A stretch of 48,657 nt of DNA from Desulfobotulus alkaliphilus. GTDB taxonomy: Bacteria; Desulfobacterota; Desulfobacteria; Desulfobacterales; ASO4-4. Position numbers and translations under genes: made by a program. The stretch lies in the NCBI RefSeq assembly GCF_007830435.1, contig NZ_VLLC01000027.1, positions 1 to 48,657 on the forward strand, read 5' to 3'. The notes beneath the pieces are model-generated. The model was given only the letters and a program-made list of their open reading frames with translations. It did not search any database and had not been told where the DNA came from. Below, piece after piece: positions 13,827 through 48,193 of the stretch (position 1 is its first letter; each line of letters opens with the position of its first letter).

Positions 13827-13866
13827 ATAAAATCAAAAATTGAATTTGTCCGAAAGTGGGGTGCTT

Positions 13867-18913: not shown

Positions 18914-20662
18914 CTATTTGGTGTATAGGGGCCTGTGCTGATAGTGGGTATGCAGCAGTTCATGGGCCTTGCCGCTGCCGGGTGTTTCCAGAAACTCCTT
19001 ATAGATTTCCTCAATAAACGGATTTTTATGGGAACACCGGATTTCCGACTGCTGATCATCGGCGTACATTCCGGCAATACGGGCGTTTCTCACCTCATCG
19101 GTGGTGTTATAGGGCTGACCGCCCCCTGCGATGCACCCGCCCCTGCAGGCCATGACTTCCACAAAATGGTAGGGGGGTTCTTTCCCCTCGTCCCTGGCCT
19201 GTCGGATTTCGTTGAGCAGATCCCGCACATTGGCGACACCATGGGCAATGGCCACACGCAGCTCTTTTCCGTCAATATGAATGCTGGCGGTGCGGATGCC
19301 GTCCATGCCCCTCACCTCCTCAAAGGTGATTTTTTCATATTCGCTGCCTGTGACAAGGAAGTAGCCCGTGCGCAGGGCTGCTTCCATTACGCCGCCTGTG
19401 GCACCGAAAATGGTGCCTGCACCCGTATAGGCTCCGATGGGGGAATCTGCCCCTTCATCGGGAAGGGAGAGAAAGTCAATGCCGGACTGTTTGATGAGCC
19501 GGGCCAGCTCCCTTGTGGTCAGAACCACATCCACGTCCTGTTGGCCTGAGGCATACATATCCTTATGCCGGACAATTTCAAATTTTTTGCTGGTGCAGGG
19601 CATGATGGCCGCTGAAAAGATTTTTTCCTTGGGTATCTCTTTTTTATCCGCATAATAGGTTTTTGTGAGAGCCCCCTGCATCATCATGGGTGATTTGGCC
19701 GTGGAGAAGTTGGGAATCATGTCGGCACAGTATTTTTCCATGTAATCCACCCAGCTGGGGCAGCAGGATGTGATCAGGGGCAGTACACCTCCTTTGGTGA
19801 GGCGATCGACAAACTCCGTCCCTTCCTCCATGATGGTCAGGTCCGCAGAAAAGTTGGTATCAAAGATGGCATCCACACCAATACGCCTTAAAGCCGCATA
19901 GATTTTTCCTGTGGTGATGGTTCCCGGCTCAAGACCGAAGGCTTCTCCTATGGCCACACGAACGGCAGGTGCTATCTGTACTGCCACATGGAGTTCCGGA
20001 TCAAGGATGGCATCCAGGAGTTTTTTGGTATCATCCCTTTCGTAGATGGCACCCACAGGGCAGTGGGCACTGCACTGGCCGCACTTGATACAGGGGCTTT
20101 CACTGAGCAGGGCACCGGCTGCGGGCATCATTTCCGTATGATCGCCTCTGCCGATGAATTCCAGTGCCCATACGTCCTGAAGCTGCTGGCATACCAGAAC
20201 GCAGCGGCCGCATTTGATGCACTTTCTCGGATCCAGAACAATGGAGAGGGTGGATTCATCCTTGGGATGTTCCGTTACATTGGACTCAAAGGGGACTTCC
20301 CGGATACTGAAGTTTGCCGCAAGGGTCTGCAGCTCACAACTGCCGCTGCGTCCGCAGGTAAGGCACTCATTGGGGTGATTGGAGAGAATCATCTCAACAA
20401 TGGTTCTGCGGATTTTATTCAGTTCCGGGTCATGGGTGATGTAGCTGGCGCCTTCGCTGACTTCCGTAACGCAGGCTCTGGGAAGCTTTGGCATGCCCTC
20501 AACCTTGACCACACAGAGACCACAGGCCCCCCAGGGTGTGAGGTCGGGATGGGCGCAGAGGGTTGGAATATGAATGCCGGCCTTTTTTGCCGCCACCAGT
20601 ACGGAAGTGCCTTTTTCGACTTCCATGGGAATTTGGTTTATTTTTATATGTATTTTCTGCAC
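18914..20662 (-). CDS. hndD: [FeFe]-hydrogenase catalytic subunit HndD
   Basis: Catalytic subunit (582 aa) of the cytoplasmic NAD(P)-linked [FeFe] hydrogenase. In order it has an N-terminal plant-type [2Fe-2S] domain (Cys 36, 47, 50, 64), a His-Cys3 [4Fe-4S] site (His96, Cys100, 103, 109), two [4Fe-4S] motifs (Cys 148/151/154/158 and 191/194/197/201), the H-cluster domain and a C-terminal small-subunit domain. H-cluster motifs are TSCCPSW (298-304), MPCTSKK (354-360) and MACRGGC (504-510). The proton-relay Cys, the first of TSCC, is present, which argues for a catalytic and not a sensory enzyme. It is last in hndABCD. By homology with HndABCD and HydABC it may bifurcate electrons between NAD(P)H and ferredoxin. 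Confidence 0.95.
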   Translation of the reverse strand: MQKIHIKINQIPMEVEKGTSVLVAAKKAGIHIPTLCAHPDLTPWGACGLCVVKVEGMPKLPRACVTEVSEGASYITHDPELNKIRRTIVEMILSNHPNECLTCGRSGSCELQTLAANFSIREVPFESNVTEHPKDESTLSIVLDPRKCIKCGRCVLVCQQLQDVWALEFIGRGDHTEMMPAAGALLSESPCIKCGQCSAHCPVGAIYERDDTKKLLDAILDPELHVAVQIAPAVRVAIGEAFGLEPGTITTGKIYAALRRIGVDAIFDTNFSADLTIMEEGTEFVDRLTKGGVLPLITSCCPSWVDYMEKYCADMIPNFSTAKSPMMMQGALTKTYYADKKEIPKEKIFSAAIMPCTSKKFEIVRHKDMYASGQQDVDVVLTTRELARLIKQSGIDFLSLPDEGADSPIGAYTGAGTIFGATGGVMEAALRTGYFLVTGSEYEKITFEEVRGMDGIRTASIHIDGKELRVAIAHGVANVRDLLNEIRQARDEGKEPPYHFVEVMACRGGCIAGGGQPYNTTDEVRNARIAGMYADDQQSEIRCSHKNPFIEEIYKEFLETPGSGKAHELLHTHYQHRPLYTK

Positions 20663-43689: not shown

Positions 43690-43922
43690 TAATCGGGAAG
43701 GCGAAACAAACGGGCCGGAACTTTTCTTCGGGGATTCTTCTCTGGATTCTGGAATGCAGTATGGCCCATCGAAACAAACGGGCCTGGAATTGTGAAGGGG
43801 TGCAAATGGCCCTGGGATTGTGGCTGCTGATTTTACAGGTGCAAGCGGCTCTGGATTGTGGCAGTCAATTTAATAGGTGCAAGTGGCTCTGAAATTGTGG
43901 CGGGGGGTAAATGGCCCTGAGT
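43690..43922 (+). repeat. Degenerate tandem repeats with GGTGCAARYGGCYCTG motif
   Basis: Three diverged ~39-45-bp units beginning GGTGCAAATGGCCCTG, GGTGCAAGCGGCTCTG and GGTGCAAGTGGCTCTG (about 43798-43922) follow two units with AACAAACGGGCC (about 43706 and 43773). Repeated short motifs of this sort occur at the ends of some IS21-type insertion sequences, but no transposase is recognisable here, so this is only a possible element end. Confidence 0.5.
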
Positions 43923-44100
43923 AAGTCTGGTCATCTTTTGAGTAAAAGTTGACGAGTTGTAAGCACACGCTTTCCCTTTGGATTCAGGGGCTTGACCTTG
44001 ATTCAGGCTGAGGCTGTGATTTTTCCGCTTTACAACCCGTCAAGTTTTCCCTAAGATTGCCACAGAAGTTGACGGGAAGGGACAGGGGGCTGACCGGGAG

Positions 44101-44265
44101 CTGACCGGGAGCTGACCTGAGCTGATCCAAGGCTTGACCGGGAGCTGACCGGGACTGATCCAAGGCTTGACCGGGAGCTGACCTGAGCTGAACCAAGGCT
44201 TGACCGGGAGCTGACCTGAGCTGATCCAAGGCTTGACCGGGAGCTGACCGGGACTGATCCAAGGC
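44101..44265 (-). repeat. Five tandem 33-bp repeats (iteron-like)
   Basis: Five units of exactly 33 bp (44101, 44134, 44167, 44200, 44233) all contain TGACCGGGAGCTGACC and end in CCAAGGC; a partial unit precedes them at 44088. Units alternate between two inner variants (TGAGCTGATC and GGGACTGATC). The period is three helical turns, so the same face of each unit would be exposed to a bound protein. There are no spacers, so this is not CRISPR. The minus-strand frame is open through the array (repeating ALDQLRSAPGQ), which follows from the period being a multiple of three. Confidence 0.9.
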
Positions 44266-44530
44266 ACAGACAGGAACCTTACTCCGCACAAGCCACAGGT
44301 GAGGCCACAGAATGCCCCAGGATCAACGAACGCTTCAGGGCCTGCGTGATTGCCTTCATGGGATTTTGAGACGATCTGAGAGCTTCTGGTGGCTTCCTGT
44401 CTCAGTACGCTATGAAGTAGGGCCTGTACCGCCAGCACCCAGGAAATAGCACAGGAAGGGCCTGAGATTGACTGAGAGGCAATAAGGCTTCCAAGTCAAG
44501 GCAATGACAAGGGAAAGGCTTAGAATCGAT

Positions 44531-44560
44531 CTGAGAGCTTCTGAGGGCTTCTGAGAGCTT
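44531..44560 (+). repeat. Three 10-bp repeats
   Basis: CTGAGAGCTT, CTGAGGGCTT and CTGAGAGCTT stand in tandem. The longer motif GATCTGAGAGCTTCTG occurs here (from 44529) and at 44373-44388, upstream of the recombinase gene. Confidence 0.75.
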
Positions 44561-44768
44561 CAGCGGGATCTTGGCTTACTCCCTGAAATTGAGCTGGTAT
44601 ATCGTGGCCTCCTAACTCCCCACATACCAGCCTTGTTCGGATCAAAGAGACGATCCTTGCAGCTCCTTCAGGTGGGTAAAAAGTATCCACCATTTGAGGA
44701 TATTTCCAAGCTTCCTCTACCGTTTTTCGAGAGTTAACTTTTATTTACATAGGAAGAAAGGCATCGAC

Positions 44769-45359
44769 ATGGGAAACAACGGGAACAATCCAAAGCAGGG
44801 CAGCCAGATAGCCGTGGAGCCTATCAAGCAAGTCAAGGATCTGAAAGCAATCAAGCAGCTTCTGAGATCCAAGCCAAGGGATTACGCCCTGTTTGTCCTG
44901 GGAATCAATACGAACCTTCGGGCTTCTGACCTTCTGAGCTTGACGGTAGGCCAGGTGGAAGGACTTCAGCCCATGGATGAACTTGTGATTCAGGAGCAAA
45001 AGACAGGTAAACAAAGACGCATAAACGTGAACAAGGCAGCCGTGGACGCAATCAATGGCCTTTTGGCTGCCATGCCTGAAGTTGACGCTGAGGCCCTTCT
45101 CTTCCAGGGGCAGCGTGGGCCGCTTACGGTTTCCTATGTAAATCGGCTTGTGAAGAGTTGGTGTAAGGCTTTGAATCTCAAGGGGAACTATGGAAGCCAC
45201 AGCTTGCGGAAGACCTGGGGATACCACCAGCGGGTTACGTTCGGGAAGGGATTGCCTGAGCTGATGGTGTGCTTTAACCACAGCAGCCAGAGGCAGACCC
45301 TGGATTACCTGTGCATTCAGGCTGAAGAGATCAAGAGCGTGTACGCCAATGAGCTGTGA
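44769..45359 (+). CDS. Short tyrosine recombinase (FimB-sized integrase)
   Basis: A 196-aa site-specific recombinase consisting of little more than the catalytic domain. All six catalytic residues are visible: Arg51 (LRASDLL), Lys78 (EQKTGK), His144 and Arg147 (HSLRKTWG), His171 (FNHSSQ) and nucleophile Tyr180 (TLDYL). The N-terminal core-binding domain of ordinary phage integrases is missing, as in FimB/FimE phase-variation recombinases. ATG 44769 is preferred over 44694 because AGGAAGAAAGG precedes it. It stands alone among repeats and is the likely enzyme for the surrounding element or for inversion or excision within it. Confidence 0.88.
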   Translation: MGNNGNNPKQGSQIAVEPIKQVKDLKAIKQLLRSKPRDYALFVLGINTNLRASDLLSLTVGQVEGLQPMDELVIQEQKTGKQRRINVNKAAVDAINGLLAAMPEVDAEALLFQGQRGPLTVSYVNRLVKSWCKALNLKGNYGSHSLRKTWGYHQRVTFGKGLPELMVCFNHSSQRQTLDYLCIQAEEIKSVYANEL

Positions 45360-45459
45360 GAAGCGGTTGCAAGATTCACATACCTATCTGGCTTTCTTCC
45401 TAAGCTTTTTCGGGGGCCAGCCAGGGGATCGGCTCAGGGCAAGGATCGACTCCGAACAG

Positions 45460-45786
45460 GGCTTTCAGTGCCTTTTGCAAGTATGCTTAATGGTTACGGG
45501 GTGTTATGCGAATTCTTATCATGCTTCTGATTTGGGAATTTTTCCGTCAATATGACAAGGTAAATCAGACTGTTACACGAATCTCTATGAGTAAATGCAA
45601 AAGGGAGAGAGAGTAATCTGAGGCTTCTTAGGCAATATCTCAGGTAATACCTAAGCATAGTAAAGAGTAACCTTCCTATAGATCAATGACTACTACGCCG
45701 CCCTTCCAGCCCTTCGGTGCCTTCAAGCTGCCTTCTTCTGATCCACAGGGAGTAACCCTTTTCCCTGACCACAGAAGGAAGAGAGC
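45460..45786 (+). repeat. Long direct repeat, copy 1
   Basis: About 327 bp, closely similar to 48310-48644. Both copies run from GGCTTTCAGTGCCTTTTGCA to CACAGAAGGAAGAGAGC. Each holds two related motifs, TGTTATGCGAATTCTTRTCA and TGTTACACGAAYTCT. It lies 100 bp after the recombinase gene. Confidence 0.9.
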
Positions 45787-45800
45787 AGGGCCAGACCTGC

Positions 45801-45872
45801 AAGGATCGGCTCTTCAAGGATCGGCTCTTCAAGGATCAGCTCTTCGATCCGACCGATCCGACCGATCCGAAC
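45801..45872 (+). repeat. 15-bp (x3) and 9-bp (x3) tandem repeats
   Basis: AAGGATCGGCTCTTC occurs three times (45801-45845; the last has one change), followed directly by GATCCGACC, GATCCGACC and GATCCGAAC (45846-45872). Both periods are multiples of three. Confidence 0.9.
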
Positions 45873-46000
45873 GGCCCGACAAGGTAAAGCCAGGGCAGAC
45901 ACAGGAGCTTCCCGTGTGGGTTTTATCAAAAGGGGTTTTTCCTTATGGCCGTTGACCTTGACCTTGCCCCTGATCCAAGGCCGGGAGCTTTCCTTCACCT

Positions 46001-46072
46001 TCTCACATACCCTTTCACATACCCTTTCACATACCCTTTCACATACCCTTTCACATACCCTTTCACATACCC
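46001..46072 (+). repeat. Six 12-bp tandem repeats
   Basis: TTTCACATACCC is repeated six times without interruption; only the first unit differs by one base. The perfect identity suggests recent slippage-driven expansion. Confidence 0.95.
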
Positions 46073-46107
46073 AACCAAAGGCTTCTCAGAGGCCAACCAG
46101 AGGCCAA

Positions 46108-46134
46108 CCAAAGGAGCGGCTCCGCTTCTTAGGG
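46108..46134 (+). repeat. Inverted repeat, left copy
   Basis: CCAAAGGAGCGG followed by CTCCGCTTCTTAGGG is the reverse complement, with a 2-base length difference, of 48250-48278. Each copy is itself a small hairpin (GGAGC/GCTCC). The pair brackets the KilA-N and Rha-like genes. Two 11-bp repeats (CAGAGGCCAAC) lie just before it. Confidence 0.8.
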
Positions 46135-46406: not shown

Positions 46407-46884
46407 TCTCACGCCTTCCGATCCTTCCATCCTTCTGTCTGGTTCGGTTTTACCTGAAATACCCGCAAAACTTAACCAGATTGCCCATAGTAACATCCTG
46501 TAATAATTGAACAATCTCAAGGGGCCGCTATAGGGGGAAGTGCCTTTACTTTTCAAGGGCTTATACGAACTCTTATCACGCTCCACTTCTTCCCATAACC
46601 ACCTGACATTGAAGCCTTTCCTGTTCTGGATTTTAAGAGGACAGGGTGGGGTAAGAAGGCTGAGATACGCAATCACATACCAACAGTACCACAGCAACAG
46701 CCACAGCAATCATACCCAAATCACTTTGAATCCAGGGGCTTAACCTAAGCAGCCACAGGCTTGTCCGTGGATTCAAAGAGGCGTGGGTGTTCCATGCTTC
46801 ACATCAACAACTTAACCGGAGAAGATCCAGCCCTCCTCCTTTGAGAGAACGGCTGACTTCCCACAAGAAAAGGAGAAGAAAATT

Positions 46885-47841
46885 ATGAAGAAAAGAATCA
46901 CAGCAGCAGCATCCCAGGATCTTGTAATCAATGGTATTGCCGTTACATGCAATGAAGCCGGGCTTTACCGCCTGAATGATCTGCATGAAGCCTCCGGGGA
47001 ATTGAAGAAGCACCAGGTAAGAAACTGGCTGAGAAGTCAGAGAACGCAGGATCTGGTTCTTCAGGTTGCAAAGGAAAGGTTCGAAGGAGTGCCGATGCTG
47101 GAAGGCGTGGTCAATCTTGATCCGGCCCTGGAAGACAAGACGGTTTATGAAAATATCGGTGGAGAAGTAATGATCCGGCTTGAATCTCCGGATTCCGTAC
47201 TGGAAACCATCCTGACTCACGCCCCTGGGAAAGCGAACCTGGATTCCCAGGAACGGGATTCTGATGGAAAAGCGATGCCGGAATCCCGGCCTTGCTCTTC
47301 TGACGGAAAAGCGAACCTCAAATCTGAGGAACGGGCTTCTGATGCTGTCCTTCACGTTCAGAGAGGCGGCAATCCAAAGACACAGGGAACCTACGCTTGC
47401 CGGGAGCTGGCCTACGATTATGCAGCTTGGATAGATCCGGCCTTCCACCTGAAAGTATTCAAGGCGTTCGATGCCCTGGCAAAAGGGGATACCGCTGAAG
47501 CCTTGGAGATAGCCCTTCGGGAAGACCTGAAACTGTCCTACCATCCCATGACGGATGCCTTGAAAAAGGTACGGGCAGCAGAGGGCAAAGCAACCAAGCC
47601 TTTCCATTATTCCAATGAAAACAATATGATCCGTGAGATTGTGACGGGCCTTACTGCGTCCGCTTACAAGCAGGAGTATGGCAAGACACCTTTCCGGGAT
47701 CTTCTGACTTATGAAGGCCGTGAAATGCTTCTCTGGCTTCAGAAAGAGAACACACGGCTGATCCTTCAGGGCCTTTCCTACAAAGAACGGAAAGAGATCC
47801 TGGCAGCAGGAAGACCCGCACAGCAGACGATGGTGGCCTAA
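46885..47841 (+). CDS. KilA-N domain protein with internal hairpin-coding repeats
   Basis: A 318-aa protein of phage and mobile-element type. The KilA-N DNA-binding domain is split: its first part (residues ~20-75, GLYRLNDLHEASG, HQVRNWLRSQRTQDLV) and last part (~170-200, KTQGTYACRELAYDYAAWIDPAFH) are separated by ~95 residues. That insert includes three 13-residue repeats (GKANLDSQERDSD, GKAMPESRPCSSD, GKANLKSEERASD) at about residues 115-153. The C-terminal ~110 residues are helical and charged. The ribosome site AAGGAGAAG is strong. KilA-N proteins act as antirepressors or regulators in phages; the role here is unproven. One base separates it from the next gene. Confidence 0.85.
   Translation: MKKRITAAASQDLVINGIAVTCNEAGLYRLNDLHEASGELKKHQVRNWLRSQRTQDLVLQVAKERFEGVPMLEGVVNLDPALEDKTVYENIGGEVMIRLESPDSVLETILTHAPGKANLDSQERDSDGKAMPESRPCSSDGKANLKSEERASDAVLHVQRGGNPKTQGTYACRELAYDYAAWIDPAFHLKVFKAFDALAKGDTAEALEIALREDLKLSYHPMTDALKKVRAAEGKATKPFHYSNENNMIREIVTGLTASAYKQEYGKTPFRDLLTYEGREMLLWLQKENTRLILQGLSYKERKEILAAGRPAQQTMVA
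47227..47343 (+). repeat. Three in-frame 39-bp repeats with covarying hairpins
   Basis: Units at 47227-47265, 47266-47304 and 47305-47343, each beginning GGRAAAGCG and ending TCTGAY. At offset 11 in each unit lies a perfect 5-bp stem with a 4-base loop: CCTGG-ATTC-CCAGG, GCCGG-AATC-CCGGC and CCTCA-AATC-TGAGG. The stems differ between units yet stay complementary. Confidence 0.9.
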
Positions 47842-47842
47842 C

Positions 47843-48193
47843 ATGAAAACACACATCTACAGCACCAGAGATTTGTCATACACGTTCGGAGTGAAGCACA
47901 GAACCCTGAAGCTTATGCTTGGGACGTACTGGAAAGAATTTGAAGCCTTGGCAGAGCCTGGGTTTAATGCGGTACCCAACCACAGAAAGCCTCACATGCT
48001 GAATGCGGCACAGTGCTGGCTGATGGTCGCCATGCTTTATCCAGAGCGTGGTGTGGATCTGAAGGTCAAGATGGCTAAGCTGATGAAAGAGGCAGCCTTT
48101 CCGATTAAGCACATACCGCCACCTGAAGCGGAGCCTGAAGCAGCAGCAGTGGAGCGTCCGAAGGTGGTCGGGAAGGTCGGGCTATCTGCTTAG
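47843..48193 (+). CDS. Rha-like phage regulatory protein (tentative)
   Basis: A 116-aa protein. The pattern STRDLSYTFGVKHRTLKLML, then EPGFNAV, then HMLNAAQCWLMVAML followed by KVKMAKLMKEA, resembles the Rha family (phage regulators with a DNA-binding N-terminus), but the match is by pattern only. The C-terminal 25 residues are Pro/Glu/Ala-rich. It starts 1 bp after the KilA-N gene with no separate ribosome site, so the two are probably translated together. Confidence 0.5.
   Translation: MKTHIYSTRDLSYTFGVKHRTLKLMLGTYWKEFEALAEPGFNAVPNHRKPHMLNAAQCWLMVAMLYPERGVDLKVKMAKLMKEAAFPIKHIPPPEAEPEAAAVERPKVVGKVGLSA

Follow-up and report, generated by a model that had tools for sequence, protein, structure and literature searches.

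Why should protein-coding DNA keep a hairpin when the bases that form it change? The question is raised by a KilA-N gene in a 48,657-nucleotide stretch of the Desulfobotulus alkaliphilus genome (referred to here as the window), in which three units starting at 47227, 47266 and 47305 repeat in frame with a period of 39 bp. The KilA-N domain is common among the DNA-binding proteins of phages and large viruses, and few of its targets are, to our knowledge, known. A study of the bstA system terms the domain poorly characterized (PMC8585504). A palindrome lying in the gene itself offers a concrete candidate target for KilA-N binding, one for each phage. The features discussed below are collected in Table 1.

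Table 1. Positions of the repeat units, palindromes and genes within the window
Feature	Position	Strand	Remarks
39-bp unit 1 (GKANLDSQERDSD)	47227..47265	+	
39-bp unit 2 (GKAMPESRPCSSD)	47266..47304	+	
39-bp unit 3 (GKANLKSEERASD)	47305..47343	+	
Palindrome copy 1, 22 bp	47234..47255	.	Paired at the inner 5 bp and the outer CG/CG; intervening AA/AA unpaired
Palindrome copy 2, 22 bp	47273..47294	.	Closest of the three to the family
Palindrome copy 3, 22 bp	47312..47333	.	CA..TG core type
KilA-N domain gene, 318 aa	46885..47841	+	Phage transcription-regulator type; domain in two pieces flanking the insert
Stretch missing from paralogue	47113..47337	+	Residues 77-151, from alignment; predicted unstructured loop within KilA-N
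Small gene, 116 aa	47843..48193	+	Directly 3' of the KilA-N gene; no Pfam or PHROG match; context only

A preliminary description of this DNA had claimed that the three in-frame units each hold a perfect 5-bp stem at an identical offset, that the stems differ with matching changes on the opposite arm, and that the in-frame insert splits the KilA-N domain. All of this is borne out at 47227-47343. Every unit carries the stem and a 4-nt loop, with the arms at offsets 11-15 and 20-24 (CCTGG-ATTC-CCAGG in unit 1, GCCGG-AATC-CCGGC in unit 2 and CCTCA-AATC-TGAGG in unit 3). The units differ from one another at 14, 7 and 15 of 39 positions in the pairwise comparisons; four of the five stem pairs are altered on both arms and none is broken, all eight changed stem positions being compensated. 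The pairing is also wider than first described: units 1 and 3 pair at the outer CG/CG too, and unit 2 has a longer hairpin.

The protein belongs to the KilA-N family (PF04383: E 3.9e-17, 62.5 bits against a curated cut-off of 23.8), the profile matching in two stretches around the insert, and it also matches the PHROG transcriptional regulator phrog_129 (E 4.5e-34). In an AlphaFold2 model built with 16 sequences, residues 70-151 have a pLDDT below 50 and lie between a helix and the beta hairpin of the domain; the palindromes fall at about residues 117-150, inside this predicted unstructured loop, which follows the first helices and precedes the beta hairpin. A paralogue on another contig of the same genome (C69) is 74% identical and lacks about 75 residues that include the array, which accounts for 39 of them. 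A family search of the genome found these two KilA-N genes and no third. In homologous KilA-N genes the corresponding loop varies in length.

How much can be concluded from the array itself? When codons were resampled with the proteins held fixed, a common 5-bp stem appeared in 10 of 200,000 arrays, under a null that ignores shared descent. Random substitution at the observed number kept the stem together with two double changes at P 2.7e-4 for unit 1 to unit 3 and 1.7e-3 for unit 1 to unit 2, with sites treated as independent. Because the unit nulls ignore shared descent or assume independent sites, and because many windows were read, the array taken alone is suggestive. A 141-nt stretch folds better than its own shuffles (z -3.2 as RNA and -2.8 as DNA), and in the predicted fold of that whole stretch unit 1 prefers another 8-bp stem over the 5-bp stem. 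In a 367,350-bp sample of the organism's own genome, window included, the array was the only one found whose hairpins are double-changed across three consecutive units.

The stronger evidence comes from relatives. A scan of homologous loci for double-changed hairpins returned five positive loci, three of them in the same KilA-N loop (L061, L087 and L120). These three loops hold longer palindromes, as do the loops of others, for example CGATCACCA-GATC-TGGTGATCG and CAAAGCAGG-AATT-CCTGCTTTG; the typical form is 9+4+9 nt, and its bearers are other bacteria and phages. KilA-N genes of many genera share a loop palindrome whose symmetry is kept and whose sequence changes freely.

The count behind this statement was made on 97 representatives with less than 85% identity, from which the window gene, its paralogue and the loci found through the palindrome had been left out. 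In 55 of them the loop contains a perfect stem of 7 bp or more and in 42 it does not, compared with a mean of 1.9 and a maximum of 7 in 300 codon-order shuffles. The 97 comprise 69 genome loci (from the best 80 of 336 relatives), 17 viral loci (from the best 80 of at least 500) and 11 phage or plasmid records picked from tblastn lists, and the 86 that do not come from those lists derive from loci found via protein patterns outside the loop. Two of the 80 genome loci and one of the 80 viral loci yielded no segment, and one two-domain locus was dropped (L105, from Zoogloeaceae, where a single gene carries two tandem KilA-N-like segments). The pool of 114 unique loop segments includes many from near-identical coliphages; in the species-level genome collection taken by itself, 40 of 69 loops have the stem (shuffle mean 1.3). 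A fuller set gives 66 of 110, with a synonymous null of mean 3.7 and maximum 11 in 200, and of 628 windows of equal size taken from other parts of these genes 13 have a perfect stem. The 55 of 97 is nonetheless the figure to use, because the set of 110 includes loci that were found through the palindrome.

A second KilA-N subfamily, of GYINAT type, was collected by the part that follows the loop (best 80 of 140 relatives, 79 used). Here the stem occurs in 22 of 35 (synonymous null mean 1.2, maximum 5 in 200; control windows 3 of 105), and since the seed proteins came from palindrome-bearing loci this set is biased towards palindrome-bearing lineages, though the stems returned differ. One Vibrio KilA-N loop (L061, positions 1612-1801) holds six palindromes with stems of 5-9 bp and differing sequences, and is the closest parallel to the window array.

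The palindrome is not tied to one reading frame. Perfect 9-bp palindromes (n = 39) occupy all three frames, in the proportion 16/16/7, and one 18-mer is read as KAGIPAL in one frame and as QSRNSCF in another. Thirty of the 39 share the cores GG..CC or CA..TG. Comparison of ungapped relatives reveals how the arms change: L095 and L106 have five identical and four double-changed pairs, L075 and L103 seven and two, and L095 and L103 three and six, with no broken pair in any comparison. The preliminary description had proposed selection on, or generation of, a palindrome, and this stands in the form of a constraint on the palindrome (or its generation) at the level of nucleic acid, for the palindrome recurs across genera, in all frames and with compensation. 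The case named as a refutation, stem variation that goes uncompensated, does occur in part: in a set of 99 representatives that counts in the window gene and its paralogue, 39 have a best 9-bp stem free of mismatches, and 43, 11 and 6 have one with 1, 2 and 3 mismatches respectively, so that 60 of the 99 carry at least one.

Do the window units belong to this family? A weight matrix built from 74 palindromes of other genes, with the window gene left out, was scored on 97,272 22-mers, and this independent profile finds the likeness: unit 2 ranks first and second (on its two strands), unit 3 third and fourth, and unit 1 seventh on the minus strand and fourteenth on the plus strand. A covariance model (R2) was built from 41 hand-picked perfect palindromes, so that its pairing percentage is set by selection. 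Run against the window plus the paralogue contig, it gave five matches with E of 10 or less, four of them the units, with modest E-values (0.036 for unit 2, 0.22 for unit 3 and 1.2 for unit 1, the fifth of the five); a site at 19435 that is unrelated ranks above unit 1. Genome-wide, the best R2 match (E 0.14, ranked above unit 2) is at G000 C19:53697 (L498), which is not in a KilA-N gene and has no long forward frame over the site. In none of the window units does the perfect stem reach 7 bp: each has five perfect base pairs, then mismatches, then outer pairs. They are at best divergent members of the KilA-N palindrome family.

A similar arrangement is found in RhuM genes (PF13310), a family to which a weak hit of the hairpin model in a congener had led. 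Of 15 loci, two are without upstream sequence; 11 of the other 13 have a perfect stem of 7 bp or more ahead of a conserved motif, compared with 0 of 39 control windows; the seed bore a palindrome, and the set therefore leans towards palindrome-bearing lineages, though the stems differ. Most RhuM stems are 10-12 bp long, their loops measure 3-6 nt, and their position behind the N-terminal part is almost constant, in the congener itself (L499, G002 C19:45561) and in L504-L515 and L518. The coding DNA of two phage gene families thus obeys a symmetry rule that selection on the protein does not require. Among the open-access journal papers listed as matches in literature searches, titles and the beginnings of abstracts report no palindromes in KilA-N or RhuM genes.

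What might the palindrome be for? The reading we prefer, which we place just short of even, is that it is a putative dyad site in DNA, carried within the KilA-N gene and probably bound by the gene's own product. Each 39-bp unit would then be one copy of a palindrome commonly kept inside phage-type KilA-N reading frames, in the stretch that codes for the flexible loop of the DNA-binding domain. Which frame it is read in would not matter, since widely differing peptides would be tolerated in that loop. The dyad would be kept in duplex DNA, its arms free to change provided that both do, with the symmetry often running through the centre. A symmetric (dimeric) DNA-binding protein would bind it, most simply the KilA-N protein itself, and such self-binding might provide feedback on the gene or a mark on the phage's own DNA. 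An intragenic site would also travel with its protein whenever phage modules are recombined, which bears on how phage proteins stay matched with their sites despite heavy recombination. Tandem duplication would have raised the number of sites in the window to three; template switching may supply the compensated changes, and selection would keep the site.

Two known systems resemble this arrangement. Phage lambda O protein binds the iterons of ori and starts replication there. The lambda record places four iterons, O-binding according to the annotation, inside the coding sequence of gene O itself, and the likeness is thus of a phage DNA-binding protein with repeated, partly inverted-repeat sites in its own gene. 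Lambda O is, however, a replication initiator and not a KilA-N protein, and its iterons are imperfect palindromes alike in sequence, whereas the window units vary in stem from copy to copy and preserve the symmetry instead. In the other system, bstA/aba (PMC8585504), a KilA-N-like protein has a DNA-form element overlapping its own gene, in cognate pairs. The aba element spans 63 bp over the gene start and carries direct CCCGCC repeats, so that the KilA-N palindrome differs in both place and symmetry; we found no stem of at least 5 bp in aba and none of at least 6 bp in the KilA-N-like part of bstA. The window palindrome is accordingly not an aba element, having neither the gene-start position nor the terminal direct repeats.

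Several observations count against a self-site. BstA is a KilA-N-like protein with a cognate DNA element and has no palindrome in that domain. The 42 representatives without a perfect stem of at least 7 bp weigh in the same direction, as does the paralogue in the same genome, whose loop has none of that length. Stems that differ within one gene (six in L061, three in the window) are not predicted by sequence-specific binding. A regulator's site would be expected elsewhere too, and the mostly single copy per phage or locus counts against the site of an own regulator; palindromes outside KilA-N genes, near hokD and in other contexts, likewise count against a KilA-N self-site. The dyad-site account does not explain why stems differ within a gene, why a phage hardly ever has a further copy, or why copies lie near hokD.

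Is the palindrome active as DNA or as RNA? In 37 of 74 distinct palindromes the central tetranucleotide is entirely self-complementary, a figure inflated by shared descent, with five different centres of which AATT makes up 29. Among 24 single mismatches G.T occurs three times and A.C four times; a looser count gives 10 and 14 of 65, and the outer pair of the centre has 9 G.T and 8 A.C. The self-complementary centres and the lack of a G.U excess on the coding strand make the balance lean towards duplex DNA as the active form, which fits better than an RNA hairpin. We consider it unlikely that the palindrome acts as an RNA hairpin in the mRNA, through pausing or processing, or by pairing with a regulatory RNA, in operons already under C4 or isrK control. 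The predicted hairpins are stable, and C4 antisense RNA is found in 11 of 34 KilA-N loci searched, with isrK in seven of the 11, which means that RNA-level control of such genes exists. These 11 loci (L061, L095, L103, L106, L120, L087, L081, L075, L115, L113 and L066) look like C4-controlled antirepressor-type operons. Against this, an RNA tetraloop does not need self-complementary central bases and G.U does not exceed A.C; moreover, six C4 loci have no exact match of at least 10 nt between the palindrome and the remainder of the locus, save for sister palindromes in L061, which leaves pairing of the palindrome with C4 RNA without a supporting match.

Searches with Rfam did not account for the palindrome. 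The window has no match at the gathering threshold, and a permissive search of 46450-47900 returned two sub-threshold hits at chance level and no C4, so that the window gene does not qualify as part of a C4 antisense-controlled ant operon; the relatives show only other RNAs nearby. Conserved mRNA structures have been predicted in KilA-N genes of eukaryotic viruses and are apparently not this palindrome (PMC6563262).

Could the palindromes have arisen by mutation and serve no function? Template switching at imperfect inverted repeats could keep homogenising the arms where the encoded loop accepts a wide range of peptides, an origin we regard as fairly improbable. Two papers describe template switching as a source of compensatory multi-base changes and spacer inversions, coding DNA included (PMC8794818, PMC8604942), and the inverted repeats homogenised in this way resemble the KilA-N palindrome in just these respects. 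On one and the same stem, L136 has the loop AATC and L110 its reverse complement GATT, and the differences between units 1 and 3 of the window are clustered. For template-switch repeats, however, neither a fixed gene position nor a shared core would be expected, and such an origin leaves unexplained the restriction to one site in KilA-N genes (compare the 13 of 628 control windows), the GG..CC and CA..TG cores, the same palindrome in two frames, and the self-complementary centres.

The preliminary description had also offered a small palindromic element invading the coding region, a proposal that is not supported. Rickettsia palindromic elements are palindromic sequences, longer than this one, that lie in frame in coding regions and are dispersed. 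The KilA-N palindrome is about 22 bp long and is found mainly at one gene site, and we judge a mobile palindromic element inserting in frame in a similar manner to be very unlikely. Its recurrence in different frames would fit such an element, as would the variable length of the loop and an exact 22-mer found at several unrelated places (see below). In the organism's own genome, however, DNA and covariance-model searches found no significant copy of the 39-bp unit beyond the three, and two congeners gave no match at E <= 1; an exact-pattern search of viral contigs produced five hits, all unrelated. One pattern, CGATNNNGGAATTCCNNNATCG, was searched in 27 host genomes of palindrome-bearing KilA-N genes and matched in five with at most one mismatch, four being the genome's own KilA-N palindrome and one being off-type. 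Dispersed copies, as expected of a mobile element, were thus not seen in any of these searches. In addition, loops with and without a perfect palindrome are of similar length (medians of 84 and 90 nt), which gives no sign of a clean insertion.

The 18-mer AAGCAGGAATTCCTGCTT lies in the KilA-N gene, in two frames, in 24 of 26 viral stretches (a stricter regular expression retrieves the segment in 21), and it is single-copy in 21 of 22 viral contigs tested, the remaining contig having a second site with three mismatches. That site aside, no extra operator copies were found in the same phage. All eight coliphage-type records have one palindrome copy each, and among 80 KilA-N loci of about 3.5 kb a site like one 22-mer occurs once in 61 and is missing from 19.

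Where, then, does the palindrome occur outside KilA-N genes? Among the 80 loci listed for the pattern CGATNNNGGAATTCCNNNATCG, the arms are complementary in 65 and the site falls within a KilA-N gene in 17, and most of the others represent one exact 22-mer, CGATATGGGAATTCCCATATCG. In the loci listed, CGATATGGGAATTCCCATATCG is found in KilA-N genes of E. coli type (six, plus L373 by its flank), near hokD-type toxin-antitoxin genes (51) and in seven other contexts. The 51 hokD-type loci are lambdoid prophages forming one cluster (L303 and L416 are examples); hokD is annotated in one record, and one of the 51 has a GYINAT-type KilA-N gene within the stretch examined. As separate observations, a sok RNA lies close to the KilA-N gene of L417, and in L354, from position 13856, an open frame contains CGATATGGGAATTCCCATATCG followed shortly by a near-palindrome of the same core type.

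Chance, or conservation of the protein alone, is scarcely credible: the array has only three units, many windows were read and the window has 41 tandem-repeat rows, but the enrichment is family-wide with the protein held fixed, the synonymous nulls contradict codon-level conservation as the whole cause, and the independent matrix ranks the window units high.

Returning to the dyad-site reading, the KilA-N and RhuM genes might together form an unnamed class of phage regulator genes, each carrying in frame, beside its DNA-binding domain, its own palindromic recognition site, of which the sequence drifts and the symmetry is kept. Such an inseparable pair of protein and site could serve as a tag of self and non-self or as an autoregulatory switch. 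We think this generalization somewhat doubtful.

The surroundings of the window gene have features of their own. Foldseek with the model of the window protein returned weak matches only, the best being the Deinococcus DNA-damage protein DdrC (E 6.6e-4, TM 0.2-0.3). A small gene similar to the one that follows the window gene also lies 3' of the paralogue. On the 5' side, a 24-nt inverted repeat with 79% complementarity occupies 46714-46788; it matches no Rfam family above threshold, and a similar sequence is found upstream of the paralogue as well (L004). Finally, short tandem arrays with units of 38, 33, 15, 12, 11 and 9 bp cluster around an integrase gene at 43799-46114 and are present on contig C69 too, and the region may therefore be prone to tandem duplication.
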